The notes under the pieces: model-generated
The model's input: only the letters and a program-made list of their open reading frames with translations
Database searches by the model: none
Told to the model about the DNA's origin: nothing
Shown: one piece after another, positions 2,956-44,382 of the stretch
Layout of the letters: the number at the start of each line of letters is the position of its first letter
Position numbering within the stretch: position 1 is the stretch's first letter
Position numbers and translations under genes: made by a program
Assembly: GCF_001006305.1 (NCBI RefSeq)
Contig: NZ_LBHJ01000020.1
Coordinates: 1 to 64,000, forward strand
Direction of reading: 5' to 3'
Length of the DNA: 64,000 bases
Source of the DNA: Silvibacterium bohemicum
GTDB lineage: Bacteria > Acidobacteriota > Terriglobia > Terriglobales > Acidobacteriaceae

Positions 2956-3906
2956 CTAACGGACCGCGACTTCTCGTGCTGAGTCCTGTGCCATTGCGCC
3001 CAGCTGACGGCGATACCAGGCTACTGTGGCCTCAAGACCTTCCTTCAGGGAGGTTTTGGGTTGATACCCTAGCCTGCTCGACAAGAAACTCGTGTCAGCC
3101 GCGCGTTCCTGTTCAAACGGACGATCCGGCAGAATGTCAAATGCCGGCTCAACGCCGTTGTCCACGATCTCCACAATCTGCTCTACGATCCCTCGAACGG
3201 ATGTAAGTATGGTGGTTCCAAGATCGAAAACGTTACCCTCGATACCGGGAATAACTGCTGCTCGCAGCAAACCATCGACGACATCCTCGACATAAATCCA
3301 GTCAGCTCTTCGCCGGCCACTGCCGAGCTTTGGACTCTCACCACACAGGAGCTTGCAAATCACAAATGGCACCAACTTCTGCATGTCCTTCTGGTTGGGA
3401 CCATAAGTCATAAAAATACGAGGCATAACAACCGGAGTTTGAAATAACTGGTAAAACATCCGCCCGTAAATACTGCCTGCCAATTTGGCCGCGGTATAAG
3501 GGGAACAAGGAAAGGTGGTGTCATCGATATACTGCGGCTCTTCCGAGGAATTTGCCAGCACAATGCGCTGACATCCTGCCTCGGTTGCGGCCGTCAGAAG
3601 ATGAACAGTGCTCTCAAGATTGCTGTGGAAGGTGGGTAATACGACATCTAAGTTACGACCCCCGCCAACGTAACTGGCCAGGTGAATTACTATTCGCGGA
3701 CGAGTGGCCTTTATTACCTGGCGCACTGCGGCGGGATCACCCAGATCGACCTGCCACCACTGAAGATTTTTGCTATCTACACGGTGAGCATCTCGAGAAA
3801 CCACATGCACGTTGGCATGGCATGCCACGAGTCGCCGGCAGAGATGAGTACCAATGAAGCCGCTGCCGCCAGTCACCAGCACGGAACTACGGGCAATCCG
3901 ATCCAT
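2956..3906 (-). CDS. NAD-dependent epimerase/dehydratase (SDR), last gene of the EPS run
   Basis: About 316 residues of the extended SDR family acting on nucleotide sugars. A TGGSGFIG dinucleotide-binding loop lies near the N-terminus and a YTAAK (YxxxK) catalytic pair near the middle. The ATG at 3906 shares one base with the TGA of the cupin-CheR gene, which implies coupled translation; an in-frame TTG at 3927 is the alternative. The exact sugar cannot be assigned. By position it belongs to the CDP-sugar/6-deoxyhexose branch at the 3' end of the locus. No terminator hairpin is obvious downstream. Confidence 0.82.
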   Translation of the reverse strand: MDRIARSSVLVTGGSGFIGTHLCRRLVACHANVHVVSRDAHRVDSKNLQWWQVDLGDPAAVRQVIKATRPRIVIHLASYVGGGRNLDVVLPTFHSNLESTVHLLTAATEAGCQRIVLANSSEEPQYIDDTTFPCSPYTAAKLAGSIYGRMFYQLFQTPVVMPRIFMTYGPNQKDMQKLVPFVICKLLCGESPKLGSGRRRADWIYVEDVVDGLLRAAVIPGIEGNVFDLGTTILTSVRGIVEQIVEIVDNGVEPAFDILPDRPFEQERAADTSFLSSRLGYQPKTSLKEGLEATVAWYRRQLGAMAQDSAREVAVR

Positions 3907-5321
3907 CAATTCGAAGGTGTCAGGCAATTTGGCTCCGTGTCATACAGTGTCTCTGTTATCTGCGCATTTTCGTCATTCCTCATTGACTGGGCAGGCGGAA
4001 TGGATCCCACTTGAAACACCGATGCGTATCGGATTTTCCAATCCGCTCTCCTTTTATTCAGAGGCTCCAGGCCGCCATAATGACAGGGCCAGCACACTTT
4101 ACAACTGGAGTCACCATCATGAATCTCCTCGAGCAGCTCCTGTACAGGTTGCCACTTCAAATCGCGCGCGACTTTTACACGAACATCGAGGTCGATTCCG
4201 GAGACAAAAAGATGCCCACCTGGATTTATCATTCGAGCAATGTTGCGTAAACAGTTTTCGGCTTCGAATGGATCCATATGGCAGATAAAATTGTTCGCTA
4301 CGACGATGTCTTGAGGACCGAGAATATCAAGCATTTCCGGCTCCCCGGCATCGCCGACATGCCAGGTGATCCCGTCTTTGATCCACGGTTTGACTGACAC
4401 AACGTCTCCGTTCTGGAGGAATAGTTCATCCATCTCCGCAGCATGGACGCGGTCAAAAATATCCGTATTGGTCAATTCCGGACGCGTTCGTGAGTAGACT
4501 CCCTGTTCCGCAAATTCCACGGCCTGCCTGGAGATATCTACAGCATGCAGGATAAGCTTCAAATCTGGCCGCGCAGACCGTATCGTCCACGCCACGGAAT
4601 AGGCCGCGGCGCCGGTGCTGCAGGCAAGAACAGCGACTCGCAACGTCTCTCCTTTGCCCTTCGTTTCAAGCAGGCGCCGAATCTGTTCTAGCTCTGGCCT
4701 ATTGCGCAGAAAGTAGGTGCTAAGGGCCTGTGCCCGAACCCTATGCATCCGCGCCAAAGTATTCACAAGTGCGCCGTACGAGAGCATCGGCCGCAGTCCG
4801 GCGAGTGACGACGGTAGACGACGCCACAATCGCTCATTCAGCCGAAGAAAAAAACTGGTCGGCGACTTGCCTAGAATTTTGGCCCGCACTAACTTTGTCG
4901 TCCACGAACTGTGATCGACTCCGTAAGGCCCTTCCCGAACAAGTACATCCGGATTCCATCGGGTATGCGTGTCGTTGCCGCTGAACCAGCGCGGCTTGGA
5001 AAGAATAAGCAGTGTCATCTTTCCCGAATAGCAGTATTCAACTTGTGGAGGCACCTCTACAAGCACGCCGGGGATGACGTCATACTTGCGATTGTCGATC
5101 GTGAAATATCCGCTACCGGCGAGAACATAGTAAGTGCGCGCGATCTTTCTGCTCACCATGAAAGTATCGTGACCCTTTTCAACCTCGACGTAATAGATTT
5201 CGAGATCTTTTTGATTCAGTGGGCCGAACGAATACCCCAATAGACCTTTCCCGGTAAATGTGGCTGAAGTTGGACGCGTGTATGTGTACGGCGTTGACTC
5301 GTTGCTCGGTGCGTTTCGCAT
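3906..5321 (-). CDS. Cupin fused to a CheR-like SAM methyltransferase
   Basis: About 471 residues from the ATG at 5321; the longer open frame upstream has no conserved content. Residues ~28-110 form a cupin-like beta-barrel (YYVLAGSGYFTID, VPPQVEYCYSG), as in WxcM/FdtA-like or mannose-isomerase-like sugar proteins. Residues ~200-440 resemble the CheR methyltransferase fold: STYFLRN at ~201, the SAM loop ACSTGAAAYS at ~233-242, then HAVDIS at the acidic ribose-binding position. In CheR the loop is usually ACSTGEEPYS, so this is a divergent member. There is no receptor-binding tail or chemotaxis neighbour. It sits between the flippase and an SDR gene, so a sugar or polymer O-methylation role is inferred. 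The fusion is unusual. Confidence 0.72.
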   Translation of the reverse strand: MRNAPSNESTPYTYTRPTSATFTGKGLLGYSFGPLNQKDLEIYYVEVEKGHDTFMVSRKIARTYYVLAGSGYFTIDNRKYDVIPGVLVEVPPQVEYCYSGKMTLLILSKPRWFSGNDTHTRWNPDVLVREGPYGVDHSSWTTKLVRAKILGKSPTSFFLRLNERLWRRLPSSLAGLRPMLSYGALVNTLARMHRVRAQALSTYFLRNRPELEQIRRLLETKGKGETLRVAVLACSTGAAAYSVAWTIRSARPDLKLILHAVDISRQAVEFAEQGVYSRTRPELTNTDIFDRVHAAEMDELFLQNGDVVSVKPWIKDGITWHVGDAGEPEMLDILGPQDIVVANNFICHMDPFEAENCLRNIARMINPGGHLFVSGIDLDVRVKVARDLKWQPVQELLEEIHDGDSSCKVCWPCHYGGLEPLNKRRADWKIRYASVFQVGSIPPAQSMRNDENAQITETLYDTEPNCLTPSN

Positions 5322-5425
5322 AACATCGCTTTCTTCGGCCGGGTGAATGGGCCTGTATGAAATCAGGACTTGTAGATAGCCGAGCGGTTCTGATTGCTGC
5401 TCTCGCCTGGAAAGTATTTCTCGAA

Positions 5426-6901
5426 CTAGCTGACCAGGCTTCCCTCTTCGACGGGAGAAGACTTTTTCAGCCCGCGGAAAAGATTCCAGTAAAGGGACCT
5501 CTGGCCTGGCACGAATAACAGCATCCCCGCGTAGGTGGCGAGGAGAAGGATGCACTCAAGCACCAATCGCGTCAAAGGAGAGAGTAATTGGCCGATAGCT
5601 AACCGCGCGCCGAAGGAGACGCATCCGGCCACAATGGCGGACGCAAGCGGACCGGTCACCGCAAGCAAAATATCCCGGAGGGTAATGACCGTGCCTCGAA
5701 CGCACCATGCGATGAGTGGGATGGCCCAAAGCGCCATCACACCTGAATATGCGAAGGCCACACCTTTCGGTCCATAGGGTAATCCCATCACGTAGCCTGC
5801 AATCATCACAGGCGCGAAGACCAAAGCAATTCTCAAACCACGCGTGACCATCCCTAATGAAGTGAGCAGCCATCCCAATGGGTTGATCACGGCGAAAATT
5901 ACAATTGTGGGAGCCAGCAGTCGAAAAATTGGAATCGCATCTTTCCATTTTGGCCCAAGAACAACGAGGATCAAGTCGTCGGCAAAGAGAGCGCAAGCCA
6001 TCGTGATCGGCAGGGTCATGCCTACAACCAAAGAGTAACCCTTAAGAAAGTAGCTCTTGAAACGGCCCGGATCATCCTGGACTCGTGACAACGCCGAAAA
6101 CGCGACCTCGCCCACGGCTGAATTTAGATTATCCGTTGGGATGTTGATGAGCTGGTATGCCCTTCCATAGATCCCGATTGCGCCGGCGCCCCAGAAACGT
6201 CCTATGAGTATTTTTTCGGAGTTATAAGCTAGATATGCGACCAAGCCATTCAGCGTGAGTGTGCCACCAAAGCGCAACATGGAGCGAATCCCGGTCTGTT
6301 TGCGGGGAATGCCTGGAAGCCAACCTGTAATTATCCAAAAAAGAATAGTTGCGGTAAGCGGAAGAGAGACTGTCATTGCAACGAGGGACCAATAACCGTA
6401 ACCTGCCTTCGCACCGCCAATACCAATTGCGGTACTCAGAATCAGGGAGACTACGCCGATCACGGCCAAAGCGGTAAAACGCATTTGGCGTTGAAGAAGT
6501 ACGGAATGTTGTATGCCGGCTGCATTGAAAACAAAACCTAGCGCCAGGACAGCCGTTACAGCAAGCAGTCTCGGCTCGTGATAAAAAGCAGCGATCGCCG
6601 GCGCTGCCGCTGCAGTCAAAACTGCAAGAATTGCTCCGACAAGAATGTTGATCCAGAAGAGCGTTGAGATCTGCTCGTCGGTGACGTCTATTCGCTGAAC
6701 TGCGGCCGCGGATAATCCGAAATCACGGAAGAGCGTCAAAATTCCCGTGAAGGCAGTGACCATGCCCACCAAGCCGAAGTCTTTCGGTCCTAAAAGCCGA
6801 GCCAGAATCATGAGCGAGCCCAAGCGAAGAGCAAAATTCGCTGCCTGAGCACTGAGCCTCGCAATACCTCCGCGGATTGTCTTCTCTTTCAGATTTTTCA
6901 T
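5426..6901 (-). CDS. Wzx-like polysaccharide flippase (MOP superfamily)
   Basis: About 491 residues from the ATG at 6901 (a TTG at 6931 is possible). The protein is almost wholly hydrophobic, with some 12-14 membrane segments separated by short basic loops, and the N-terminal RLGSLMILARLLGPKDFGL stretch typical of Wzx/RfbX/WzxC-type exporters. Such proteins flip lipid-linked repeat units across the inner membrane. It is the only flippase candidate in the locus, which together with the Wzy-like protein at 16580-17950 points to a Wzx/Wzy assembly route. Confidence 0.85.
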   Translation of the reverse strand: MKNLKEKTIRGGIARLSAQAANFALRLGSLMILARLLGPKDFGLVGMVTAFTGILTLFRDFGLSAAAVQRIDVTDEQISTLFWINILVGAILAVLTAAAAPAIAAFYHEPRLLAVTAVLALGFVFNAAGIQHSVLLQRQMRFTALAVIGVVSLILSTAIGIGGAKAGYGYWSLVAMTVSLPLTATILFWIITGWLPGIPRKQTGIRSMLRFGGTLTLNGLVAYLAYNSEKILIGRFWGAGAIGIYGRAYQLINIPTDNLNSAVGEVAFSALSRVQDDPGRFKSYFLKGYSLVVGMTLPITMACALFADDLILVVLGPKWKDAIPIFRLLAPTIVIFAVINPLGWLLTSLGMVTRGLRIALVFAPVMIAGYVMGLPYGPKGVAFAYSGVMALWAIPLIAWCVRGTVITLRDILLAVTGPLASAIVAGCVSFGARLAIGQLLSPLTRLVLECILLLATYAGMLLFVPGQRSLYWNLFRGLKKSSPVEEGSLVS

Positions 6902-6955
6902 GGACGTTCTTGAGGTATGGCGGGATTTCAACTGATTGGGTTCTGCTGCTCTTAC

Positions 6956-7609
6956 TCACATCACCAGCTTGCGGCAATAAAACGCCTCTGCATAACCGCT
7001 GGAGGAATTGCACTCCATCCCCCGCAGCCTCATGAGAGAAAGAAATGTCTCCGGCTGAAACCATCGCTTCTGACGCTGTGACTGAAAGGCTTCCATAAGA
7101 AAACTGACTTTTTTATGGCAGGTTTCCATCTCCAAAGGCACAAACACACTCGGTTGTCCCATGTCGCCGTCATATTTTGGAATTTCATACTCCAAAATCA
7201 AATGATCTCGAAATGTGTTCCAAGTCAGTTCCGCGATAAGTCGATGGTCTTGATGCGCATCCTTTCGATTGTGCGTGAAGACGAGACCTGGTGAGATTTT
7301 CTGTTTCAACTCTTCAAACACTGACTTCACTTCGGCGCCCACATACGGCATAAACCCGTCGGGGAAACTTTTCAGCAAAGGACCTTTCAACTGCGCCGTA
7401 GGGACGAACAATTCCGCGGCATGTTTTGCCTCGGATTCACGAGTTCCAAGAGCGCTGAACACCACCCAATGAAACTCACAATCCGGATATTTCTTGGCAA
7501 GGCGAAGAATCGATCCTCCGCAACCAATCTCGATATCATCTGAGTGACATCCCAGACACAATATTTGCAGCGGCCTACTCTTTTCGGCCTCCAGGTTCAA
7601 CTGAATCAT
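6956..7609 (-). CDS. PIG-L family (LmbE-like) deacetylase
   Basis: About 217 residues. The zinc-site signature of the PIG-L family is present as GCHSDDIEIGCGG (family usual: PHPDDE) and as HNRKDAHQDHR further on. Members remove acetyl groups from N-acetyl sugars or related amides. The ATG at 7609 overlaps the TGA of rfbF (ATGA), so the two are translationally coupled. A role in trimming an amino-sugar residue of the EPS is inferred. Confidence 0.83.
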   Translation of the reverse strand: MIQLNLEAEKSRPLQILCLGCHSDDIEIGCGGSILRLAKKYPDCEFHWVVFSALGTRESEAKHAAELFVPTAQLKGPLLKSFPDGFMPYVGAEVKSVFEELKQKISPGLVFTHNRKDAHQDHRLIAELTWNTFRDHLILEYEIPKYDGDMGQPSVFVPLEMETCHKKVSFLMEAFQSQRQKRWFQPETFLSLMRLRGMECNSSSGYAEAFYCRKLVM

Positions 7610-8427
7610 AGGCCGGCCGCTACCAACTCCAAGCGATTTGAGTGACCGTTGGTGTTTCTGTTCCAGACCTTCCACGGCGCAGTACTGACATTTAACTCCT
7701 CAAGACGTTGCTTGTCTTTGAAGGTGTCCATGCATTGCCAGAAGCCGCTGTACTTGTAGGCCAGTAAAGCCTGTTTGTCGATCAGACGCTGAAATGGCTC
7801 GCGCACGAGCTCTTCGCCCTGTTCAATGTGACTGAAAACCTCGTTCCGCATGACAAAAAAACCACCGTTGATCCACATATCGGTGCTGGTAAGCGGACAA
7901 ATTTCTTTCACCATTCCTTCAACACCAGTGTGAACGATGTCGAAGCTTCCGGGCGGCTGCACCAGCAGTAAAGAAGCGATGGCGCCGCTGCGTTCGAAGG
8001 TATCGATCATGGCGGGAAGTTGGACATCACTCAATCCATCCCCATAGTTCGCGAGAAATACTTCCTCGCCCCGAACATAGGGCTCTATTGCCCTGAAACG
8101 TTGGCCTATGTTGGCATTAGCGCCTGTCTCCACAAAGGTGATTGTCCAGTCATCAATATCGCGATTTAAAAACTTTACATTTCTTCCGCCTTGAGACCAG
8201 ACAAAATCGTTGGACACCGACTCGTCGTAATGTAGGAAATAGTCCTTAATAACGTTGCCCTTATATCCGAGGCAGATAATGAAGTCCTTATGGCCAAAGT
8301 GCGCGTAGTACTTCATAAGGTGCCAGAGGATCGGCCGTGTGCCTATCGTCACCATAGGCTTGGGGACATCGTCTGAATATCCGCGGAGCCGCATGCCGGA
8401 TCCGCCGCAAAACAAAACTACTTTCAT
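7606..8427 (-). CDS. rfbF: Glucose-1-phosphate cytidylyltransferase
   Basis: 273 residues, the full family length. It makes CDP-glucose from CTP and glucose 1-phosphate, the entry step for CDP-linked 3,6-dideoxy or branched sugars. The N-terminal FCGGSGMRL nucleotide-binding loop and the DDVPKPM segment fit RfbF, and YGDGLSDV supplies the metal-binding aspartates. The ATG at 8427 is preceded by a good GGAGGG ribosome site. It lies directly after a C-methyltransferase and before PIG-L. A clear CDP-glucose 4,6-dehydratase is not seen next to it. Confidence 0.92.
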   Translation of the reverse strand: MKVVLFCGGSGMRLRGYSDDVPKPMVTIGTRPILWHLMKYYAHFGHKDFIICLGYKGNVIKDYFLHYDESVSNDFVWSQGGRNVKFLNRDIDDWTITFVETGANANIGQRFRAIEPYVRGEEVFLANYGDGLSDVQLPAMIDTFERSGAIASLLLVQPPGSFDIVHTGVEGMVKEICPLTSTDMWINGGFFVMRNEVFSHIEQGEELVREPFQRLIDKQALLAYKYSGFWQCMDTFKDKQRLEELNVSTAPWKVWNRNTNGHSNRLELVAAGL

Positions 8428-8440
8428 AGCAACCCTCCTC

Positions 8441-9715
8441 TCAGCAAATCGTCACTTTGGGAATCGGCACGACAAAGCTGCCTCCCCACTCTCGAATGAA
8501 CTCCAGTTGCTTTATGATTTCGTCCTTTAAATTCCAGGGCAGAATCACTACATACTCAGGCTTGGTCTCACGAATTCGGTCTGGATGGTGGATCGGAATG
8601 TGTGTGCCAGGCAGGAAGCGTCCTTGCTTATAAGGGCTTCGATCAACTGTGTACTCAATTAGATCTCTTCCGATTCCGCAATAATGCAGCAGCGTTGCGC
8701 TCTTGCCCGGCGCCCCGTAGCCTGCCACGGACTTTCCCTCGCGAGCCGCTTTGACTAAGAAATCTACTAACGCCAGCTTGGTATCCTTCACCTCGCGGGC
8801 AAACCTCTCATAACCACCTACCGAATCGAGGCCAGCTTTTTCCTCGTCCTCAATCACGCGCGCCACATTTGGCGCCGTAGGATGGTTATTCGAACCCGCG
8901 CGACACGCGAACACACGCAGGGAGCCACCGTGCGATGGCAGCTCCTCCACGTCAAATACCTTGAGGCCGTGAGCCTCCATGATCCGAACCGTGGTCAGCA
9001 TGGAGAAATAGGAGAAATGTTCGTGATAAATGGTGTCGAACTCGTTCTTCTCGATCAGTTTCAACAGATGGGGAAATTCGAGCGTGAGCACACCTTCCGG
9101 CTTCAGGAGAACCTTCAATCCTTCTACGAAATCATTCAGATCCGGAACCTGTGCGAGAACATTGTTGCCGAGAACCAGGTCGGCGCTCTGCTCCTCTCTC
9201 ACTAACTCTTCAGCCAGGCGCGTCCCAAAAAAACTCACGAGCGTGGGAACACCCTTCTCTACAGCTACTTTGGCCACGTTCGCGGCGGGCTCAATGCCCA
9301 GCACCGGTATGTTATGTTGAACGAAATATTGCAGGAGGTATCCGTCGTTGCTCGCTACCTCGACTACAAAGCTGTCTTCGCCCAAACCGAAGCGAGATCT
9401 CATATTCTCGCAATAGCTCTTTGCATGCCTAAGCCAGGAATCTGAATATGACGAGAAGTATGCGTAATCGCTGAAGATGTTTTCCGCCCGTTCGTATTCC
9501 TCCAACTGTACGAGAAAACACGTATCGCACACATAAACGTGGAGCGGGTAGTAGGTCTCGCCGTGATTCAATTCAGTCCGGGACGGATATGTTTCGCAGA
9601 GGGGAGACATACCCAAATCCACGAATGTGTGTTGTACATTGGCGCCGCAAAAGCGGCAGCGCTTGACGCTGACTGCATCTTGTTTAGTTTCCGCAGGTAA
9701 TGTGATTGTGGCCAT
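8441..9715 (-). CDS. SAM-dependent sugar C-methyltransferase (zinc-binding N-domain)
   Basis: About 424 residues from the ATG at 9715. Three parts match the TylC3/NovU-type sugar C-methyltransferase architecture: an N-terminal zinc-binding region (CRFCG, then CDTCF), a central SAM domain (EVASNDGYLL loop) and a C-terminal part with GYGAPGKSATLLHYCG. These enzymes put a methyl group on a carbon of an NDP-4-keto-6-deoxysugar, giving branched sugars. Next to rfbF, the expected substrate is a CDP-ketosugar; that is inference. Confidence 0.88.
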   Translation of the reverse strand: MATITLPAETKQDAVSVKRCRFCGANVQHTFVDLGMSPLCETYPSRTELNHGETYYPLHVYVCDTCFLVQLEEYERAENIFSDYAYFSSYSDSWLRHAKSYCENMRSRFGLGEDSFVVEVASNDGYLLQYFVQHNIPVLGIEPAANVAKVAVEKGVPTLVSFFGTRLAEELVREEQSADLVLGNNVLAQVPDLNDFVEGLKVLLKPEGVLTLEFPHLLKLIEKNEFDTIYHEHFSYFSMLTTVRIMEAHGLKVFDVEELPSHGGSLRVFACRAGSNNHPTAPNVARVIEDEEKAGLDSVGGYERFAREVKDTKLALVDFLVKAAREGKSVAGYGAPGKSATLLHYCGIGRDLIEYTVDRSPYKQGRFLPGTHIPIHHPDRIRETKPEYVVILPWNLKDEIIKQLEFIREWGGSFVVPIPKVTIC

Positions 9716-9753
9716 AGATAGTGTCCGTTTTCTCGTAAGATGCTGGTGGAAAT

Positions 9754-10806
9754 TTAGGCGACAACTGCTGTCTGAACATGCTCGGTGGTCCACTGCAGCC
9801 AGCTATCCAGCAGATTTTCGCTCATCAATCTCTGTATCTGCGCGATCCGCGTGTAGCGGCCCGTTTTGAGGTCTACAAGAGAGAGCTTCGCGGCGCGATA
9901 TGCTTCATAGAGCTCCTGGGCGCCTTTGAGAGCCGTCCACTGGGGTCGAAACCCAGGCACCATGCGAGCAATCTTGTCAAAGCAAGCCCGGTAGCAACGC
10001 AGATCTGGACTGCCGCCAGGGGCATATTCTACGCGGCAATCCGGAACCACTTTGGCAACAATATCCGCGAGTTCGCTGATGCGAAAGTTCTCTTCATTCC
10101 TGCCGACGTTAAAGGTTTGGTTATGAATCGTCTCGAGTGGTGCATCAAGTACCGCGACAACGGCCGCGCTAATGTCACGGATATGAACTATAGGACGCCA
10201 GGGAGTACCATCGCTTTTGATGTAAATTCGTCCTGTCGTATAAGCCGATGCGACCAGGTCATTCAACACGATATCGAGCCGCAGTCTCGCTGACACGCCG
10301 TACGCAGTAGCGTTACGCAGATAAGTCGGCGAAAAATTGTCGTCAGCGATCGATGCGATGTCCCGCTCGGCAAAGACCTTCGATTCTCCGTACGGAGTGA
10401 CAGGATGCAGGTCGGAGGTTTCATCCAAAAAATCATCGCCTGCGGCCCCATATGTACTGCAAGAGGACGAGAAAACAAAACGCGAGACTCCGGCGTCTTT
10501 CGCGAGTCTGGCCAATTGCACCGAGGCTAGGTGATTGATGTCGTAAGTGAGTTGAGCATTGAGATTTCCCAACGGGTCATTCGACAGCGCAGCCAAATGT
10601 ACGACCGCATCGAAGCCCTCCAGATCAGAGCGCCGCAGATCACGGATATCTTTGCGAACCTCTGGAATCTTTTGTGAGTCGGTCCCAAAATCACAACCGT
10701 CATATAGGTCGGTGTCAAGGCCAACCACCTGATGCCCAGCGGCGAGCAATATGGGCCCGGCGACGGCACCGATATATCCTTTATGGCCAGTCAGTAATAC
10801 TCTCAT
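9754..10806 (-). CDS. NAD-dependent epimerase/dehydratase (SDR) of the C-methyl sugar branch
   Basis: About 350 residues from the ATG at 10806, which has a GAGGAAA ribosome site; an upstream in-frame extension lacks conserved residues. The TGHKGYIG dinucleotide loop and PYGESK catalytic segment mark an extended SDR. The C-terminus carries a helical tail. It resembles the SDR at 28599-29588 (shared LSNDP and WRPI motifs), so the two may be ancient paralogues. Whether it acts as 4,6-dehydratase, epimerase or 4-ketoreductase cannot be told from sequence alone. Confidence 0.83.
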
Positions 10807-11015
10807 AGATTTCCTCTTTAAAATTGGTCGATAGGGCAAACAGATATATTTTCTTGCGAACGTTTCAACACGCATCTAGTCGCGAATAAACGTTCCCGTG
10901 GGAAGAAATGATCGGTAGTGCGATGACAACATGGACTGGGAATGACGGATTGCTTTGCGGCTCTTACCAGCTCTAACGCGCTATTCCAAAAACTGTGATC
11001 TCAACTTATGCCGTT
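10807..11015. other. 209-bp intergenic gap inside the EPS run
   Basis: One of the largest gaps in the locus, separating the DUF4910 gene from the SDR/C-methyltransferase/RfbF group. No credible small gene was found. It could hold an internal promoter, but no convincing -35/-10 pair was recognised. Confidence 0.5.
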
Positions 11016-12856: not shown

Positions 12857-12898
12857 ATTTGATCGAGCAGGAAGTTGAGGCGTGATCGATTGCAGACC

Positions 12899-14206: not shown

Positions 14207-14334
14207 ATGTTCGGCTCGTGTGCCGGAAATGCACCCGATTTCTCCTCGGAGTTGAGAATGTGTCCTGCGGCTCGATAGCGGGTGAGATAGGCCACAAGCT
14301 CGCTGTATTACACGCGACCAGCTCGAATTTGAAA

Positions 14335-15405: not shown

Positions 15406-15477
15406 CTATACGATGCGGTGCTGCTCGCCCCGACTGGGGTGGATGGGAACTGGCCATCTAGCAGGGTTCCGCGCTTT

Positions 15478-16506: not shown

Positions 16507-16579
16507 TTGCGATGTCTTAAAGAGCCGTTCGCATTACGAGTGACATAAGACGGATTGATGGGCCGCGGGTCTGAAAGGG

Positions 16580-31487: not shown

Positions 31488-31511
31488 CAATATCCGTCTC
31501 CCGTCGACGTT

Positions 31512-32339: not shown

Positions 32340-32472
32340 CAAGCCCCCTTGTGATCGCGATTGTCAATGCACAGGTGACACCATCGTGCGGGAAACCAGA
32401 CTGACGGCTCGCGTAGATATTGTTTCGTTCTTGCCGATGCCGCGGACTTTATTCTGCGCCGCCAGATCAGTT
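32340..32472. other. Intergenic gap before the dehydrogenase-like gene
   Basis: 133 bp without a credible gene; contains the ribosome site of the downstream dehydrogenase-like gene. Nothing else recognised. Confidence 0.4.
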
Positions 32473-35220: not shown

Positions 35221-35344
35221 GATATTTACCGCCCTTTGACGCAGTGCTGATTGCGAAGATTGATTGGATTCGGGGAGTCGGGATTAGCTTAGAGAGAAGA
35301 GAATGTAGTAATCGCAGAGGCGACGAGTTAGAGGCATGCCGGTT

Positions 35345-36612: not shown

Positions 36613-37629
36613 CTAACTTGATTGAATCGTTACCTTATCGCGCCCATCCGGCAGTGATGCCGACGGTGAACGGTAATAGTAATAATCATTACGAGCTGCG
36701 CTTTTGGAGACGTTCAACAGAGCACCGATCAGCTTTTTGGGCTCGAGCGCCTCAAGTCCTCTTTGCAATTGCCGCTTCTCGGTGGTTCCCTGACGCGCCA
36801 CTAAGAGAATCCCGTCAGCCACGCGCATCCAGACACTCGTGTCGGCCAAGGGCAATATTGGAGGTGAATCGATGATTACCCAATCGAACAATTCCGCCAC
36901 CTGGCTCATAATTGCAGAGAGAGTTCCTGACTGTAGAAGCTCAAGCGGGTTCTCAGGACTGCTGCCTGCCGGCAGAATCCATAAGTTCGGGTCTTCCAGA
37001 TGGTAAATACTCGAGATTAAATCGCCCTCCCCGAATAACCATTCACAGATTCCTTGCTTCTTTCCGAGTCCGAACATTTGCGACAAAGATGGGCGCCGCA
37101 CATCACCTTCCACCAGCAAGATCTTTTGTTGTGCTTTGCGCGCGAGAGTACAGGCCAGATTCGCTGCGACCGTACTTTTTCCCTCCTGCGGGATTGTGCT
37201 CGTAATGAGCACCTTCTTCAGGGGTCTTTCCTTTCGGAGGTGCTGCAAGCGGACTCCCAAGAAGCGGAAGTTCTCCGCCGCGACGCTATCACTATCCGTA
37301 ATGCACGCAAGTCGATTCTTGACAGGAACCACGACCTGAAGAGACTTGAACTGGGCGAACGGATTCGGGCGTTTGAAAACAGGAGATGTTTCGACTGCTA
37401 CATGAGTCTCATCTGCCGTCGCTGACGACAGCATTGCCCGCTGCGAAGGCAAGGTGTCATGCTCCGCGGACTTCCCGGCGTAGGGCTTCTCGCGTACCGT
37501 AGTTCCCTTTTCCGAAACTGCATAACGCTCTGCAATCTGCAGCACCTCTGTTGCCGTCGCGAGCCCTGACAGACCGGACCCATCGCGTTCTGCTTCCGAT
37601 CTTTGTAGTGCATCAAAAAGATGGCTCAT
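36613..37629 (-). CDS. CpsD/CapB-type tyrosine kinase (BY-kinase)
   Basis: 338 residues. Walker A STIPQEGKST, Walker A' LLVEGDVRRP and Walker B WVIIDSPPILPLAD are in order. A tyrosine cluster (NDYYYYR) sits near the C-terminus, the usual autophosphorylation tail. It partners the Wzz/GumC-like protein and its phosphorylation cycle controls chain length and export. The gene overlaps the ExeA-like ATPase gene by 17 bp. Confidence 0.91.
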   Translation of the reverse strand: MSHLFDALQRSEAERDGSGLSGLATATEVLQIAERYAVSEKGTTVREKPYAGKSAEHDTLPSQRAMLSSATADETHVAVETSPVFKRPNPFAQFKSLQVVVPVKNRLACITDSDSVAAENFRFLGVRLQHLRKERPLKKVLITSTIPQEGKSTVAANLACTLARKAQQKILLVEGDVRRPSLSQMFGLGKKQGICEWLFGEGDLISSIYHLEDPNLWILPAGSSPENPLELLQSGTLSAIMSQVAELFDWVIIDSPPILPLADTSVWMRVADGILLVARQGTTEKRQLQRGLEALEPKKLIGALLNVSKSAARNDYYYYRSPSASLPDGRDKVTIQSS

Positions 37630-38602
37630 GTTTGCTCACGTGAACAGATAGAGGAGCGCCTGGCTCTGATTCGGTCGCGGTAGGTCTCAACAGTGAAGAA
37701 TAGAGATCGGGCAGGACGCTTGTAGCTTGCTGAATGTCTTTTCCATGGCGACCGTCGAACCGTTCGGTCTCCGGCCAAGGGAGCACATTGAGGCGAAACT
37801 CCCTCGCCACATCCTCTATGATGTCCGGAGTTACAATCCGAATTTGTCTTGCGTAAGCGCTAATAAGCGCGTTTTCACAAATGGTGTTGATCAGGCGGGG
37901 AAAACCTCTTGAGTGAAAATGGATATCCGATATAGCTTGCGGAGAAAACAAGGTGTTTGCTCGAGAATTCAAACCCGCGATTTGAAGACGCCGCTCGATA
38001 TATCCTTCGGTCTCATCTTCATCCAGCGGCCCCAGCCTTGCGCGAAGCGCGATTCTCTGCTTCAGCTGCCTCAGACCAATCGAGTCCAATTTCTCATCAA
38101 GTTCTGGCTGGCCGACTAAAACGACCTGGAGCAGCTTGTCTTCGGTCGTCTCGAGATTTGTCAGAAGGCGGATCTCTTCAAGAAGGTCCGCGGACAAGTG
38201 ATGCGCTTCGTCTACAACCAGCACTGTGGTCAAATTCTTCGACCCTTGCGAGATTACGAACTGCCCCAAATCAAGCAAAAGCTCGCCTTTGTTTTTACCG
38301 GACACGGGTCGACCAAAATCGGAGAGTACATATTGCAGAAATTCGGTCGGAGACAGCAGGCTGTTGAACACATAGGCATAGGTGACATCTTTGCTTTGCT
38401 TCAACAGGCGAAGCAGGCATCGAAGCATCAGGGTCTTTCCTGTGCCTACCTCGCCGGTCACTACGACAAATCCCTTATGCCGCCGAACACCATAGTAAAG
38501 TGCAGCGAGGGCCTCGTTGTGGCGCTGGGTCGAGAAGAGAAACTCGGGATCCGGCGTGAGCTCGAATGGGTTACGCGCGAGATTGAAGAAAGCCTTATAC
38601 AT
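37613..38602 (-). CDS. ExeA-like AAA ATPase of EPS loci (XrtA-associated type)
   Basis: 329 residues. Starts MYKAFFNLARNPFELTPDP, a signature of ExeA/GspA-like and PEP-CTERM/EPS-associated ATPases. Walker A GEVGTGKT (~50-57), Walker B VLVVDEAH and a sensor region (LVGQPEL) are intact. Homologues are encoded next to Wzz and BY-kinase genes in EPS loci; the precise task is not established. No exosortase or PEP-CTERM protein was found here. Confidence 0.86.
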   Translation of the reverse strand: MYKAFFNLARNPFELTPDPEFLFSTQRHNEALAALYYGVRRHKGFVVVTGEVGTGKTLMLRCLLRLLKQSKDVTYAYVFNSLLSPTEFLQYVLSDFGRPVSGKNKGELLLDLGQFVISQGSKNLTTVLVVDEAHHLSADLLEEIRLLTNLETTEDKLLQVVLVGQPELDEKLDSIGLRQLKQRIALRARLGPLDEDETEGYIERRLQIAGLNSRANTLFSPQAISDIHFHSRGFPRLINTICENALISAYARQIRIVTPDIIEDVAREFRLNVLPWPETERFDGRHGKDIQQATSVLPDLYSSLLRPTATESEPGAPLSVHVSKHEPSF

Positions 38603-38613
38603 TAGAAAAGGAT

Positions 38614-40224
38614 TTAACTATATCGATAGCTGAGGGCCGAACCCGCCAGGATGATGGCAACCACGACTGCGCTCATCGCCCATCCGAGCAATATTCTCTT
38701 CTTGCTCTTTCGTTCATCCGAAGAATCCACAATCTCGGGAATCTCGGAGATGACTTTCATCGGTAACAGATCTTTGATTTCCTCTTCGCTGTGGATGCGA
38801 TCATCCATGAATTCCAATCCGCCAGCTATGACGACACCCAGCGCGAGCCCGACCCCCAGCCCGATTCCGCAAAACTTCAGCCGGTTGGGAAAGCTCGGCT
38901 TCAATGGCAGACTCGGTGGGTCCAGCATGCGAAAACGCTCACCCTTCTGCATTTGCTCCATGCTGGTTGCCATCTTTGACTCGTTTTCTTTCCTAAGCAG
39001 ATCGTCATAATTTGCCTTGGATTGATCGTAGCCTCGGGTCAAATCTGATAGTTGCTGCTCGCTTACCGGCTCCTCATTCAAACGTGCCTGATAGTCGCCT
39101 ATCTTTCCCTTCAACGCGACGACCGCTCGTTCATGGTTAGAGATTTCTGCCTGGTTAGCCTGCAGTTGGCCCCGCAGCTGTAACATTGCCGGATTTTGGA
39201 GGGAGTCCTCAGCTTCACGAGCGTCGGCATCACTGTCAGGTAAGCTGGCGCTCTGCCTGTTTTTCAGCCCGGCGATGAGATCATCTCTCATCTTTTCTGT
39301 CTTGGCTATCTGAACTTTCAGGTTCCGGATATCCGGATATTGATCGGTGTAATGCGAGCTGAGATCTGCGAGTTGAGCCTTTAGTTTTTCGAGCTCGTGA
39401 TCGATCGCCGGCAGACCTGTCGGAGCACCGTCGGCCGTTCGGGACGAGCCTTGGAGAGTTCGGTATTGATTAATTAACGTCTGCAGGTAAACCCGCTGCT
39501 GCTGCGCCGTCGTGAGGGCATTGTCTTCGCTTTGCAACTGGGACTGCAGGCCGGCCAGAATCTGAAGATTGCTTGCCTGTTGAGTAGGCAGGTCGCCCAC
39601 GTGCCCACCTTTAAACTCGCGGATCTTCGCATCCTGTTCGGCTAGGCTCTGGCGTGCGCTCTCCAACTGTTCTGCGAGAAATCTGGTCGTGTCTTCGGAC
39701 TGCTGTTGACGTACCGCTAGATTCTCGCTAATAAACAGGTTGGTCAGTTCGCCAGTGACCTGTTGGGCGATGTTGGGATCGCGCGCTGAATAATATATGT
39801 TGAATGCGGTAATCGTGTTCTGAGGGTCACGCACGAGCTCGATCTCTATATCTTTGCGCATACGCCCGACTTTTTCGTCCGGCGTCAGAGGGGTGCGACC
39901 GCCGCTATAGAGGTTCAGGCGGTCGATGATGTTAAGGAGGCGCGTGCGGCTAAGAATCTGCTGACTGATGTTTTGCAGCCGGTCTTGCAGATCGTCGTTG
40001 ATATTAGAAATGACATAATCTTTCGGCATGGTGGGCTGTTCCACCAAAATCAGGGTGCTCGATTTATAACTTGACGGCAGGATCCAACTGACTCCCCAAA
40101 CCAGAGACCACCCAACCAGCAACGCCACAAGGAAATATGGGTGACGGCGGCGAACAACGTCCAGATACCGCTGTATATCGAATGGCTTTGAGCCCTGTTC
40201 CTCTAGGTCTTCTGGCATCGTCAT
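38614..40224 (-). CDS. Wzz/GumC-like polysaccharide co-polymerase
   Basis: 536 residues. A membrane helix near residues 32-52 is followed by a Wzz domain, long Gln-rich coiled coils (~150-400), the GNVR-like region with a Pro-rich FRMLDPPSLPLKPSFPNR, and a helix at ~450-470 plus a last hydrophobic C-terminus. It spans the periplasm and sets chain length with the BY-kinase. The ATG at 40224 overlaps the stop of the barrel gene (ATGA). Confidence 0.9.
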   Translation of the reverse strand: MTMPEDLEEQGSKPFDIQRYLDVVRRRHPYFLVALLVGWSLVWGVSWILPSSYKSSTLILVEQPTMPKDYVISNINDDLQDRLQNISQQILSRTRLLNIIDRLNLYSGGRTPLTPDEKVGRMRKDIEIELVRDPQNTITAFNIYYSARDPNIAQQVTGELTNLFISENLAVRQQQSEDTTRFLAEQLESARQSLAEQDAKIREFKGGHVGDLPTQQASNLQILAGLQSQLQSEDNALTTAQQQRVYLQTLINQYRTLQGSSRTADGAPTGLPAIDHELEKLKAQLADLSSHYTDQYPDIRNLKVQIAKTEKMRDDLIAGLKNRQSASLPDSDADAREAEDSLQNPAMLQLRGQLQANQAEISNHERAVVALKGKIGDYQARLNEEPVSEQQLSDLTRGYDQSKANYDDLLRKENESKMATSMEQMQKGERFRMLDPPSLPLKPSFPNRLKFCGIGLGVGLALGVVIAGGLEFMDDRIHSEEEIKDLLPMKVISEIPEIVDSSDERKSKKRILLGWAMSAVVVAIILAGSALSYRYS

Positions 40225-41561
40225 CTACCCAGCGGTCTTGAAAACTGATAAGAAATGGAGATAAATTCGCGGTTGGTGTCAGGAGCATTGGATATCACTT
40301 GAATACCGCTATAACTCTGGCGCAAGAATGTGTACCCGAGCCCGAAGACATAGTGTTCGCCTATTGGATGCTGAACCGATGCCGTTCCACCAATGTTATG
40401 TCCTCCTTCTTGGTTAGATACGAAATAGGATGGAGTCACGTTTTTATTCATTGCATAGCTTGACGCTAATCCGACACTCCACGCACGAGTCGCTTTCCAT
40501 CGCCCATATATACTGACGCCATTCGATTGCAGGGCTCCAGCCAGCCCTCCTCCCGCGGTGACAGTTCGTGAATATCCGAATCCTGCATCCATATGCTGCG
40601 CTTGCCATCCCATGTTTGCTGTTAGGGTCGGTGACCAAGATCCGTACGCCGGCAGAGGAGATTGCATGATTTCGAAATGCTGTGGGCCGCCCGATACGGA
40701 GATGGTCAGAGCAGGCTTCAAATAAATAGTGTCAAAGAAAGAAACTGTGTGCGTCTGGACCGTACTCTGTGCATTTACGGGGTAGGAAAGGATTTGTGCG
40801 TATTGATAAGTCGCGCCAACATAGTGAATCTTAGAGAGACGGTGATTGTAGAAAGCCGACCCTCCCTTTGAATGCGAGTCATACAGACCAGGAACTGCGG
40901 CCAGATCGGGATAATGCAAACTCGTGAATGTTCCGGAGGCGCCGATCATACCATTCATGCTGAATTGATAGGTTATCTGCACGTTTGCCAGATTTGTGAG
41001 CTGGTCAGCGTCTGTGGTGACAACGGCTATCGGCGGATACGGCGAAGAGCCTGCTATCTGCCTTCCCGATAATGAATCTGGCTGGTCGAGTATGGCCGAG
41101 CTCTTTTGAAATGCGTCTTTAAAGATTGCTGTTATATGTGGGCTCAGCCGGTAATTGTAATTCAACGCCGCATTTTGATCTGTTTGATTGAGTGAGCTTG
41201 TGTGTTGATAGACCGTGAAACCTGGGCTGTAATTCAACAGCAAGTGTTGTCTCGAAGTAGTCTGGTCGATTTCGATGGTTGGCCAAAATGAATAGATAGT
41301 GTCGGCGATTGGATTGGCGCTGCCCGACCCGAGTACGTTGTCGCTGTATGAGGTGCTTGCGGTCCATCCGGTACGCAGATAATTCGATCGTGTTCTAGAA
41401 CCCGCCTCCCCCGGATAAGCCCCGCTGCTTACTGAAGGGGGAGTCAGCATCTGGGATTGATCCACCTGACTGGGAGCATCCTCTGGCGGGGTTGCGCCTT
41501 CCTGTGACCACGCGGGTATTGCCGCGAGTAGTGCGAGATTTAAGCAAACTCGTGTAAGCAT
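40221..41561 (-). CDS. Outer-membrane beta-barrel protein of the EPS export complex
   Basis: 446 residues with a signal peptide (cleavage near AWSQ). After a Pro-rich stretch the rest shows alternating aromatic/hydrophobic beta-strands and ends in F/R-rich strands (YVFGLGYTFL, FISISYQFSRPL), consistent with an outer-membrane barrel. The family is widespread in acidobacterial and exosortase-type EPS loci, always near Wza and Wzz. It may form or stabilise the outer-membrane channel. Confidence 0.8.
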   Translation of the reverse strand: MLTRVCLNLALLAAIPAWSQEGATPPEDAPSQVDQSQMLTPPSVSSGAYPGEAGSRTRSNYLRTGWTASTSYSDNVLGSGSANPIADTIYSFWPTIEIDQTTSRQHLLLNYSPGFTVYQHTSSLNQTDQNAALNYNYRLSPHITAIFKDAFQKSSAILDQPDSLSGRQIAGSSPYPPIAVVTTDADQLTNLANVQITYQFSMNGMIGASGTFTSLHYPDLAAVPGLYDSHSKGGSAFYNHRLSKIHYVGATYQYAQILSYPVNAQSTVQTHTVSFFDTIYLKPALTISVSGGPQHFEIMQSPLPAYGSWSPTLTANMGWQAQHMDAGFGYSRTVTAGGGLAGALQSNGVSIYGRWKATRAWSVGLASSYAMNKNVTPSYFVSNQEGGHNIGGTASVQHPIGEHYVFGLGYTFLRQSYSGIQVISNAPDTNREFISISYQFSRPLGR

Positions 41562-41570
41562 AAACGACCA

Positions 41571-42233
41571 TCAGGGCACAATAACGGTATCGCGCGGCTC
41601 GAGCTTGATGTTCTGCTCAGTCTTTTTACCTTTGATTACGTCCTTGTAGTTAAAGGCGATACGGTTTTCCCCACCACCGCCAGGATTCGGGCGGAGAATG
41701 TAGATGGATTTCTGTTTGGCGAAGTCCTTAAATCCGCCGGCAGCCGCAATCGCATCCAAGACCGTCGTCTCACCTACAAGCGAGTAAGATCCCGGCTTTG
41801 CTACTTCGCCCAGGATGTTGAACTTCGCGCTGTTAATCTGCTGAACGATCACCGCGACTTCCGGTTCGGCAATGTAGTTCCGCAGCTTGCCGGCGATTTC
41901 CTGCTCGAGTTGCAGAGGAGTTCGGCCTGCCGCCTGCAGTTCTCCTACTAGAGGCAGCGAAATTCTTCCGTCAGGACGCACCGGTATCGACCGAGAGATG
42001 TCCGGCTCTTTCCACACATTGATTGCTAGAAGATCGTCATTGCCAATGACAAAGCTTCCATCGTGTGGCTTGACGCTCGACGGTACAAGAGTTTTATCGA
42101 GCGAAGCCGTCTCAACAGGAGGCGGAATTTTGTCGTGAGTCTGGGTCGGGGCCAACACTTGCGCTGACAAGGAAGTTGCAAGGACTATCACAACCAGCCC
42201 GAAGTGTATCCGTTGATCGGCTCCGTCTTTCAT
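41571..42233 (-). CDS. Wza-like polysaccharide export protein (Poly_export/SLBB)
   Basis: 220 residues from an ATG with a strong AGGAG site. A signal peptide (~1-24) lacks a lipobox Cys, unlike classical Wza lipoproteins. Residues ~60-140 are the Poly_export domain (YVIGNDDLL-like, VRPDGRISLPLVGEL), followed by one SLBB domain (VAKPGSYSLVGETTVLDAIAAAGG). It is shorter than Wza (~380), having no C-terminal barrel helix; the adjacent barrel protein could supply the outer-membrane pore. Confidence 0.9.
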   Translation of the reverse strand: MKDGADQRIHFGLVVIVLATSLSAQVLAPTQTHDKIPPPVETASLDKTLVPSSVKPHDGSFVIGNDDLLAINVWKEPDISRSIPVRPDGRISLPLVGELQAAGRTPLQLEQEIAGKLRNYIAEPEVAVIVQQINSAKFNILGEVAKPGSYSLVGETTVLDAIAAAGGFKDFAKQKSIYILRPNPGGGGENRIAFNYKDVIKGKKTEQNIKLEPRDTVIVP

Positions 42234-42278: not shown

Positions 42279-43817
42279 TCAGTCTACCCGGCCGTCGCGG
42301 AAACCTGTCCTCTTGCCTCTGGACCCATTGGGACTCGGAAAAGAAGAGGAGTCCGTAGATTTCATCTGATACTGCTCGATCTTATAAAGCAAAGTCCGAT
42401 AGCTGACCTTGAGGAGCCGGGCGGCGGCTTTTCGATTCCATCCCGTTTTCTCTAACGCCTCGGCAATCACGTTCCTTTCGGCCTCCAACTTGACACTCTG
42501 CACCAAGGACTTGAGTGAGTCAGAACCGGTGGCGCCACCGCGAGACTGAATTAAGGAGGATGCCGGAGAATTCACACGTCGCGGCGAGGTTGAAACCGCA
42601 TCCTGCGTCGCCTCTTCTTGCCGGCTCGGTTCAAACGACAGTTCCTTGTCGCCAACCATGAGATAACGCTTCACGACACTTGCCAACTCTCGCAGATTCC
42701 CTGGCCAGGAATATGCCTGACAGGCCTCGGTAAAGGCCGGTGAAAAATCCCGAGGAGAGAGGCCGTAGTGTTTAGCAAATTGGTGCATGAAATGGCGCGA
42801 TAGAAGTGGCAATTCCTCTTTACGCTCGCGCAGCGAAGGAACGTGAATTGTATAAGCGCTCAGGCGATGGTAAAGATCCACGCGAAGCCTATTTTTAGAG
42901 ATTGCATGTTCCATATTTATGGTGCTTGTGGCGAGAACGCGAACATCTACTTCGACAGCGGCGGTTGTTCCCGGCCTGATGTAACGCTGGCTCTGCAGAA
43001 CCTGCAGAAGGCTTGCCTGTACGGACATCGGCATCTCAGTAATCTCATCAAGTAGAACTGTGCCCTTGACGCAACACTCCAGCTTGCCTAATTTCGTTCG
43101 CACCGGTGCGGCTGCGTCTTCTCTTTCGTACCCGAAGAGTTCTCTCTCCAGCAGATCCCCAGGTAGTGCAGCACAATTTACCTTCGCAAACTCGAACCCG
43201 GACCGAACGGATAATTTATGGAGTAAACGCGCGATTGTGTCTTTCCCGCTTCCACTCTCACCGAGAATCAATACGGGCACGTTGCTCTCCGCCAACAATG
43301 CCGCTTGAGCCCGGATTTTTCGCATGATGGGACTGATGCCGATGAAAAAGATGTCATCGCTGATCAGTTCGATGTCATCGCTGGCAATATCCGTCTCAAC
43401 AGCTTCACACCCCGTGGAAAGATAGTGGCGGATAGCAGTTTCAAGTTGGAGGCCATCGACGGGCGTGACGAGGTATTCCCGCGCACCCAGGCGAAGCGCT
43501 TCCTGTTCCTTTCCAACATCGTCAGGATGGCAGATTAAAATAATCGGCAATGCCGGGCGAAGGCGCCGAAGCCATCGCAAGATGTGCAGACCGTCCGCAT
43601 CGCCGCGTGGGAGGTCCAGTAAGAGCAGGTCTGGCGATGCGCCGGATTGCACGCGCTCCATTGCATCCCATGCGTTGGGGACACTTTCAAACTGCCAGTG
43701 GTTAGATTCCCCCATCAGCCACAGAGGGCGGAGAACGGCTGAATCGCGGCTGACAGCGAGCAATCTTGCCGTTTCGATTGTATTTCCTATCACGTATTGG
43801 CTCCCGATCAGGGCCAT
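42279..43817 (-). CDS. NtrC-like AAA+ regulator lacking the sigma54-contact loop
   Basis: About 512 residues from the ATG at 43817 (a TTG at 43829, two bases after the nusG-like stop, is possible). Residues ~20-135 are a receiver with Asp at ~68, but the N-terminal acidic pair and the conserved Lys are replaced. The AAA+ part has Walker A GESGSGKD (~186-193) and Walker B VLLDEI (~254-259). Where activators have GAFTGA, this protein has EREDAAAPV. A Fis-type helix-turn-helix (NRKAAARLLKVSYRTLLYKI) closes it. Without GAFTGA it is unlikely to work with sigma54 in the usual way; a TyrR-like mode is possible. Confidence 0.86.
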   Translation of the reverse strand: MALIGSQYVIGNTIETARLLAVSRDSAVLRPLWLMGESNHWQFESVPNAWDAMERVQSGASPDLLLLDLPRGDADGLHILRWLRRLRPALPIILICHPDDVGKEQEALRLGAREYLVTPVDGLQLETAIRHYLSTGCEAVETDIASDDIELISDDIFFIGISPIMRKIRAQAALLAESNVPVLILGESGSGKDTIARLLHKLSVRSGFEFAKVNCAALPGDLLERELFGYEREDAAAPVRTKLGKLECCVKGTVLLDEITEMPMSVQASLLQVLQSQRYIRPGTTAAVEVDVRVLATSTINMEHAISKNRLRVDLYHRLSAYTIHVPSLRERKEELPLLSRHFMHQFAKHYGLSPRDFSPAFTEACQAYSWPGNLRELASVVKRYLMVGDKELSFEPSRQEEATQDAVSTSPRRVNSPASSLIQSRGGATGSDSLKSLVQSVKLEAERNVIAEALEKTGWNRKAAARLLKVSYRTLLYKIEQYQMKSTDSSSFPSPNGSRGKRTGFRDGRVD

Positions 43818-43830
43818 AAGGCAAGACAAT

Positions 43831-44382
43831 CTACACTGGTTCCACGTCGTATCCTTCGATACTGATGGCTAGAGATCTCTGCATTGCTTCAACTGAAATG
43901 ACTAGTTTACGTTCTGCCGAACAAGAAAGAAGTATTCCCTCGATCCCATCCAATGCTCCACCCCGAACTCGCACGCGCTGTCCAGCTTTGAGGAATGGGT
44001 GTGGGGAATAAGGGAGCTGCTCGTCGATCAGAGTGCGAATCGCATCGATCTCCTCGTTCGGAATCGGCGTGCCCAGCCCTTGTGCACCGACGAGCCCCAG
44101 CACGCTGTCGATCCGCAGCACACGCTGGCGATCCTCGTTGCTCGGCATCAACTTCACGAACAAGTAGCAGCTGAATAAAGGCAGATCTATGACTTTTTTC
44201 CGGTCTTTCCAGCGATGCACTTCGCTGACAGTCGGCAAGAAAGTTGTCACGCATCGTTCGCGAAGCCGGTGAGCCACAGCTTGTTCGTGCCGGGCACGGG
44301 TCTGCACTGCATACCAGCTCTCGAGATTCTCCCCGACTGGGGCCGCCGCGTTCGGAAACACTAATGGCTGACTGCTGGTCAT
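43831..44382 (-). CDS. Specialised NusG paralogue (RfaH/UpxY/LoaP type) heading the EPS operon
   Basis: 183 residues. WYAVQTRARHEQ (~23-34) opens the NGN domain, PLFSCYLFVK is the hydrophobic centre that binds RNA polymerase, and a KOW domain (GQRVRVRGGALDGIEGIL) follows. General NusG is encoded with ribosomal genes; one at the head of a polysaccharide locus belongs to the specialised class that suppresses termination over long operons. GGAGG/GGAG lie just before the ATG. Two stem-loops sit in the leader 60-115 bp upstream. Confidence 0.9.
   Translation of the reverse strand: MTSSQPLVFPNAAAPVGENLESWYAVQTRARHEQAVAHRLRERCVTTFLPTVSEVHRWKDRKKVIDLPLFSCYLFVKLMPSNEDRQRVLRIDSVLGLVGAQGLGTPIPNEEIDAIRTLIDEQLPYSPHPFLKAGQRVRVRGGALDGIEGILLSCSAERKLVISVEAMQRSLAISIEGYDVEPV

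Follow-up and report, generated by a model that had tools for sequence, protein, structure and literature searches.

The window analysed here, the first 64,000 nucleotides of a Silvibacterium bohemicum contig (NZ_LBHJ01000020.1, our C13; position 1 is the contig end), carries a long leftward exopolysaccharide locus headed by a gene for a NusG paralogue, and the leader of that gene contains a conserved element that resembles the ops site of RfaH. We propose, with a probability of roughly 80%, that the two form an UpxY-type antitermination module in which the paralogue loads at a composite of RNA hairpin and non-template DNA ahead of the long operon. As a candidate recruitment signal the element is strongly supported by comparison among loci, while the mechanism and a single 41-kb transcript are what we infer. 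An earlier, sequence-only reading of this DNA set the locus at 2956 to 44382 and stopped short of the control region upstream of 44382, where the most informative signal is found; the element lies in that region, 234 nt upstream of the paralogue gene.

Assignment of the paralogue to the UpxY family is secure. The protein matches PF02357 (E 5e-20) and passes the cut-off of the UpxY model NF033644 (109.5 bits against 100), while it fails those of the RfaH equivalog TIGR01955 (73.7 against 144.5), of LoaP NF033641 (51.7 against 125) and of housekeeping NusG TIGR00922 (42.4 against 135.7). Its genome encodes four NusG-domain proteins: three paralogues passing the UpxY cut-off, the other two at 121.6 and 116.8 bits, and the housekeeping NusG (C4), which scores 214.8 on TIGR00922 and 55.2 on NF033644. 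In a tree of 46 rows (midpoint root, RfaH rows plasmid-borne only, several long branches flagged, that of the paralogue on C1 included), the acidobacterial sequences and Bacteroidota UpxY share one branch (100/98, 41 of the 46 rows), apart from plasmid RfaH and NusG. The phylogenetic placement suggested by the sequence-only reading is thereby given with respect to UpxY, plasmid RfaH and NusG. An AlphaFold model built on 60 sequences has an NGN domain and a beta KOW domain at moderate confidence (mean predicted local distance difference test, 81), with Foldseek matches to NusG and RfaH. If the phmmer match to RfaH (query 20-175, chain 1-154) is read from its ends without a gap, the nearly invariant R29 sits at about the position of RfaH K10, a residue that contacts ops according to passages of PMC5995543. 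A search for UpxZ (PF06603) in the same genome gave no match, the profile being equally silent in all 14 controls. The UpxY cut-off, the tree grouping and an ops-like leader element that tracks the paralogue together lend good support to the earlier view of this protein as a self-encoded specialised-NusG antiterminator. The paralogue on C11 heads a second polysaccharide cluster. That on C1 (L006 2380-17717) heads WecG, GT2, Wza-type and BcsQ-like genes and a 2822-aa hybrid polyketide synthase-nonribosomal peptide synthetase (PKS-NRPS) with an aminotransferase domain, an unusual mixture of export and natural-product genes.

When up to 230 bases upstream of the start were viewed in 29 relatives and the three paralogues of this genome, most leaders shared TGTGACTCAGAGGGCGAAGCTATG. 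A 20-mer search of the genome (6.46 Mb, up to 3 mismatches) returned 2 matches, each ahead of a paralogue gene, with the reversed control giving 1. The element of the third paralogue is a variant carrying a 1-nt insertion, and thus each of the three has its own element. No further copy was found at this tolerance, which insertion forms would escape. With up to 2 mismatches allowed, 59 of 200 genomes of the family contain 79 matches in all, and the reversed control yields 2. Among the matches listed, with 150 paralogues, 63 of the 79 elements lie 6-262 nt upstream of a paralogue gene on the same strand, and 61 distinct paralogues have an element upstream. Paralogues are present in 57 of the 59 element-bearing genomes compared to 123 of 200 overall (Fisher 7e-13, relatedness ignored). 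A weight matrix found the element in 77 of 87 distinct paralogue loci, the best of 435 Markov shuffles reaching 0.7 against a threshold of 10. Since 63 loci supplied training sites and many loci had been fetched via the element, the fairer figure is 28 of the 30 best-scoring paralogues (window included), which were chosen by protein alone. The ten loci below the matrix threshold include several diverged forms keeping GC-RRA-GC; no convincing element was seen in L014, L131, L133, L117 and L129 among them. Two loci have tandem element pairs ahead of a single paralogue gene (genome coordinates G070:C10:105800 and 105936; G190:C61:111078 and 111274).

Again among the matches listed, 16 of the 79 have no paralogue directly downstream. 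Three of these (L072, L075, L081) carry a weaker one after all, three (L073, L082, L083) resemble chance matches, L085 ends at a contig end, L078 is cut short and has a frame like gene 2 of the window locus (an NtrC-like regulator), and L084 and L087 lie 5 kb upstream and 1.4 kb downstream of a paralogue, respectively. The remaining six (L074, L076, L077, L079, L080, L086) precede polysaccharide or NRPS genes with no adjacent paralogue. The genes that follow are of the types wza/tyrosine-kinase/PHPT, Wzx with glycosyltransferases, GFO/hexapeptide/DegT, sulfotransferase/WecG, and NRPS. Because the element precedes such genes, the system looks able to act in trans, and the view of the paralogue as a self-encoded antiterminator is too narrow. 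At L074 (994-6611) the copy stands ahead of a hexapeptide transferase, a phosphopantetheinyl transferase and an NRPS.

The anatomy of the element is regular. Among the 63 training sites, GGGC and the closing GC hardly ever change, 62 have a GNA loop, and almost all end in R-Y-R; 24 sites from outside the family agree. Read as a consensus pause, G-11, G-10 and Y-1/R+1 coincide with ops positions, and the pause positions are nearly invariant. In its 3' half the element matches a consensus pause that would carry a GC-GNA-GC mini-hairpin, similar to the ops of RfaH. Passages of PMC4686876 describe the GCGAAGC DNA fragment as an unusually stable mini-hairpin (melting temperature 78 C) and give GNA and GNNA loops with two G-C pairs as the stable classes. 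RfaH needs the non-template hairpin of ops, whose G4-A7 loop closed by C3:G8 is a GNNA loop (passages of PMC5995543). The GNA hairpin proposed here is analogous to the GNNA loop of ops, and this suggests, as a general rule, that specialised NusG factors recognise tiny DNA hairpins of extra stability.

The 5' half of the element is predicted to be the 3' arm of a nascent-RNA hairpin. Its GUGACUC pairs with upstream arms GGGUCAC, GAGUCAC and similar in many loci. At 92 sites, native arms have a mean duplex energy of -7.84 kcal/mol, compared to -6.61 for arms exchanged between loci (200 rounds, best -7.14) and -5.09 after shuffling; for 24 out-of-family sites the values are -6.34 native, -4.74 swapped (500 rounds, best -5.92) and -4.48 shuffled. 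GTCA and GTCC occur upstream of 34 and 4 of 57 GTGAC elements, and upstream of 5 and 6 of 26 GGGAC elements (Fisher on the four counts 0.0045, with 9 other sites left out). All of these pairing figures disregard relatedness. Outside the family there are CGATTAC/GTAATCG pairs in which both arms differ from the usual, as well as several loci with weak pairing only (L171, L173, L181, L186, others). An RNA hairpin backed by arm swaps, with a 3' arm conserved in sequence, could also be what the paralogue itself reads, in the manner of LoaP, instead of non-template DNA. We consider this unlikely, as the loop varies in length and sequence between loci, the most invariant part of the element (GGGCGRAGC) lies outside the RNA stem, and the protein falls short of the cut-off of the LoaP model. 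LoaP at dfn in Bacillota does share with the present system a leader RNA hairpin and a paralogue near long biosynthetic operons, PKS/NRPS included, and differs from it in that score and in the conserved pause-like core found here. The dfn hairpin has a UNCG tetraloop, according to passages of PMC12691694, whereas the loops here are variable.

Under the composite-site model, RNA polymerase would start at about 44750, transcribe the leader and pause at the composite element 44640-44617, with the Y/R pair near 44618. The GUGACUC half of the element would form the 3' arm of a hairpin in the nascent RNA, and the exposed non-template strand would present GGGC-GAA-GCTGTA, combining the consensus pause and the GC-GNA-GC mini-hairpin. 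The paralogue, as first product of the operon, would load at the element, displacing housekeeping NusG, and polymerase bound by it would resist pausing and Rho termination across the following genes. The stretch GGGCGAAGC would then be required for the effect of the paralogue on distal genes, and GGGCGAAGCTG DNA is its candidate ligand. The prediction is sharp in that it names the base of the pause, the mini-hairpin and the RNA stem. Of 76 leaders, 42 have a run of at least five C in the 200 nt that precede the element, and none has a run of five G there; at -700 to -500, such C-runs occur in 6 of 72. The C-runs close to the element are possibly Rho loading sites.

The association extends beyond the family. 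A refined pattern, TGTRACTSANAGGGCGRAGCTRYR with up to 2 mismatches, shaped partly by the six out-of-family matches of a first phylum scan, gave 45 matches in 34 of 297 phylum genomes and 2 for the control, both within one genome. Paralogues (profile E<=1e-15) are present in 32 of these 34 genomes compared to 109 of 297 overall. Outside the family the figures are 27 of 28 compared to 97 of 266 (Fisher 2e-12), and 21 of 22 without the six pattern-shaping genomes. Among the 24 of 37 out-of-family matches that were examined as loci, 4 have the element 65-223 nt downstream of a paralogue, and in 13 a homologue of a window export, transferase or NtrC-like protein follows it, the NtrC-like ones at 24-36% identity, so that they could be any such regulator. 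Most of the six first-scan matches stand ahead of export- or polysaccharide-looking genes, partly as read from translations. The element was not seen in the three leaders compared from Bacteroides, Spirosoma and Sphingobium.

Several points, in this and the next two paragraphs, weigh against our proposal. In the family, 66 of the 123 genomes with a paralogue have no element match at up to 2 mismatches. The first phylum scan, made with the 20-mer, gave its 6 out-of-family matches against 4 for the control and is unconvincing alone; outside the family the element is upstream of the paralogue at 0 of 25 protein-chosen loci; and 11 of the 24 examined loci show no window-gene homologue after the element (tblastn with window proteins; one has only 348 bases). 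Shared ancestry inflates all of these association statistics. The core stem hardly varies, and the DNA hairpin is therefore without covariation. With the DNA parameters of ViennaRNA no stable fold was obtained for acidobacterial 13-mers, and an E. coli ops-like oligonucleotide folds weakly (-0.9). Generic DNA folding parameters may miss GNA loops; since they do not predict the acidobacterial hairpin, the DNA mini-hairpin stays a proposed structure.

In 57 of 77 loci an ATG or GTG follows the GCT of the element in frame with the paralogue gene, so part of the conservation may be translational. It could even be that the element is merely a conserved translation start of that gene, made up of a Shine-Dalgarno sequence (AGAGGG) and ATG. 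We think this very improbable, and as a full account it is largely refuted: 20 of the 77 loci, the window among them, have no such start, and the element heads polysaccharide genes without a paralogue gene, with ACG or GTA replacing ATG. Moreover, the TGTGACTCA half lies beyond the Shine-Dalgarno sequence, and its pairing with upstream RNA is stronger within a locus than between loci.

The last of these points concerns the extent of the transcript. The open reading frame (ORF) list and the PF02357 match bear out the one-direction run of genes from 44382 to 2956 described in the sequence-only reading: 35 consecutive leftward ORFs, 43831-44382 down to 2956-3927, with the paralogue at their head. 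Computed from longest-ORF starts, the 34 junctions comprise 15 with overlapping or abutting ORFs, 14 with 1-79 bp between them, and five with gaps of 124, 130, 138, 169 and 140 bp. The description of most genes as joined by ATGA/GTGA overlaps or gaps under 80 bp was too strong on the overlaps, because only 3 of the 34 are exact 4-bp ones. Likewise, the last of the 35 genes does end at 2956, but a further leftward ORF continues the run to the contig end. The five gaps of more than 100 bp and one promoter-like match, the strongest on the minus strand within the locus (20547-20518, 10/12, extended -10, at the largest gap), allow internal starts. The locus might then comprise several transcription units, the paralogue serving the first few genes only, and we regard this as the most serious of the alternatives, if still the less probable account. 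Promoter-like and terminator-like matches in the scanned stretches were not more numerous than in shuffles, sigma-54 promoters showed no excess (21 found compared to 31.75 expected), and the window contains one element only. A single 41-kb transcript through all 35 genes is what we infer.

The second gene of the locus introduces a different regulator. GAFTGA, the loop motif of sigma-54 activators, is replaced in the window protein. Of the 30 homologues that span the site, the window's among them, 29 lack it and L017 alone has it intact; another homologue has a near-intact GAFPGA. Sigma-54 control of the operon through gene 2 was considered and rejected, given the loss of GAFTGA and the lack of an excess of -24/-12 matches. 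A strict promoter-like form of the type TCTTGCAG-N17-TANNNT precedes the element in 24 of 76 leaders, and the promoter-like sequence of the window is single-copy in its genome (up to 3 mismatches). The looser tandem TTGCA motif is shared by 30 of 83 leaders, and a gene-2 homologue adjoins the paralogue gene in 29 of the 30 with the motif compared to 10 of the 53 without it; the sole exception, L087, has a gene-2-like match further down. This linkage, along with the loss of GAFTGA, suggests a sigma-70-type, self-regulated promoter. Since the first gene to be recognised downstream of the paralogue gene is a gene-2 homologue in 38 of 84 loci, the element might bind such a DNA-binding regulator, or an RNA-binding protein, and be linked to the paralogue through shared polysaccharide operons. 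This too is improbable, slightly more so than recognition of the RNA hairpin. The element follows the paralogue over the 297 genomes and also outside the family, the gene-2 homologue tracks the tandem TTGCA motif at the promoter, and the element lies downstream of the promoter-like sequence in the 24 strict leaders and fits the pause consensus.

Our proposal of an UpxY-type module can be set against known systems. UpxY antiterminators serve capsule operons in Bacteroides (Chatzidaki-Livanis 2009/2010, as cited in passages of PMC7819879 and PMC12691694), and UpxY contacts upstream duplex DNA according to a 2025 paper that cites Saba 2024 (passages of PMC12691694). The present system is alike in its NCBIfam family, scored over cut-off, in heading a polysaccharide operon by gene order, and in an apparently leader-based action. 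In the 2024 work of Saba on Bacteroides, UpxY reportedly reads non-template DNA and upstream duplex together with RNA hairpins, and this layout fits that of the window. Differences are the phylum, the GAFTGA-less NtrC-like protein encoded by gene 2, the Bacteroides leader (L097) in which the element sequence was not seen, and the elements heading genes without an adjacent paralogue. With RfaH and ops of Enterobacteria the system shares the consensus-pause layout, what would be a tiny non-template hairpin (GNNA in ops, GNA as proposed here), a place in polysaccharide-operon leaders and an apparent use in trans. It differs from them in the TIGR01955 score, in the letters of loop and element, in a KOW domain modelled as beta and not alpha, in a regulator inside its own operon, and in an RNA hairpin arm that is part of the element. 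TaA of Myxococcus is likewise a NusG paralogue tied to a 40-kb operon (passages of PMC7819879), the likeness being by description.

According to passages of a 2020 study of NusG paralogues, recruitment was unknown for those encoded in their own operons, RfaH alone being known in detail (PMC7593976). The element is a candidate recruitment signal obtained from comparative genomics alone, in a phylum for which the open-access literature we found describes none. For UpxY in Bacteroides, a 2024 paper has reportedly addressed recruitment since. No acidobacterial UpxY or element of this kind was found in open-access literature; subscription papers and preprints were outside this scope, so absence from print is not established. 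Given the above, we are inclined to think, with less confidence than in the module itself, that Acidobacteriota have a widespread polysaccharide and natural-product regulon under UpxY-branch NusG paralogues. These would load in cis and in trans at a pause formed by an RNA hairpin and a non-template d(GC-GNA-GC) mini-hairpin, a second, possibly independent ops solution, and one branch would pair the regulator with a GAFTGA-less NtrC-like protein switching a sigma-70-type promoter. As a marker, the element may also help to locate regulated polysaccharide and PKS/NRPS clusters in soil bacteria that have been little studied.

Table 1. Features of the exopolysaccharide locus and its leader, in positions of the window.
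Feature	Position	Strand	Basis
Promoter-like TTGCAG-N17-TAATGT with tandem TTGCA-type motif, conserved; putative transcription start ~44750	44757..44785	-	
Predicted nascent-RNA hairpin GGGTCACA-CAGAGA-TGTGACTC; 3' arm is the 5' half of the element	44633..44654	-	fold
Candidate ops-like recruitment element TGTGACTCATAGGGCGAAGCTGTA	44617..44640	-	leader comparison
Putative pause/mini-hairpin core GGGCGAAGCTGTA within the element	44629-44617	-	
Perfect inverted repeat of 9 bp, CTAAAGATC-ACCCCC-GATCTTTAG, lying in the leader downstream of the element and ahead of the paralogue gene	44472..44495	-	
NusG paralogue, UpxY family, 183 aa, NGN and KOW	43831..44382	-	PF02357, NF033644, AlphaFold model
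NtrC-like regulator (gene 2; receiver, AAA+, Fis helix-turn-helix), GAFTGA-less; often neighbours the paralogue gene	42279..43829	-	domain matches
Export/assembly genes: Wza-type export protein, EpsL-like outer-membrane protein, Wzz, XrtA-type ATPase, tyrosine autokinase	36613..42233	-	family matches
PHPT sugar transferase, glycosyltransferases, nucleotide-sugar genes, pyruvyl transferase, PIG-L, Wzx-like flippase, methyltransferases, others	2956..36547	-	family matches
Extra leftward ORF, at least 965 aa, IPT/TIG domains, beyond gene 35; cut by the contig end	2..2896	-	ORF and domains

Most of the remaining genes of the locus match polysaccharide or sugar-nucleotide families and some are without a family; the EpsL-like assignment is a weak match. 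The inverted repeat of the leader was rejected as a conserved signal, its sequence being absent from the 29 relatives' leaders viewed; other perfect hairpins, with 7-base arms of different sequence and upstream of the element, occur in 3 of the 29 (L015, L020, L031). No Rfam family reached its gathering score in the window, and no tRNA or tmRNA was found there. A DUF4910/DUF2172/HTH_47 protein is encoded within the polysaccharide locus (11016-12389, minus strand). Divergent from the operon is a gene for a LuxR-type response regulator (45096-46530, plus strand), and its 11/12 promoter-like TTGACA-17-TACAAT points away from the operon.

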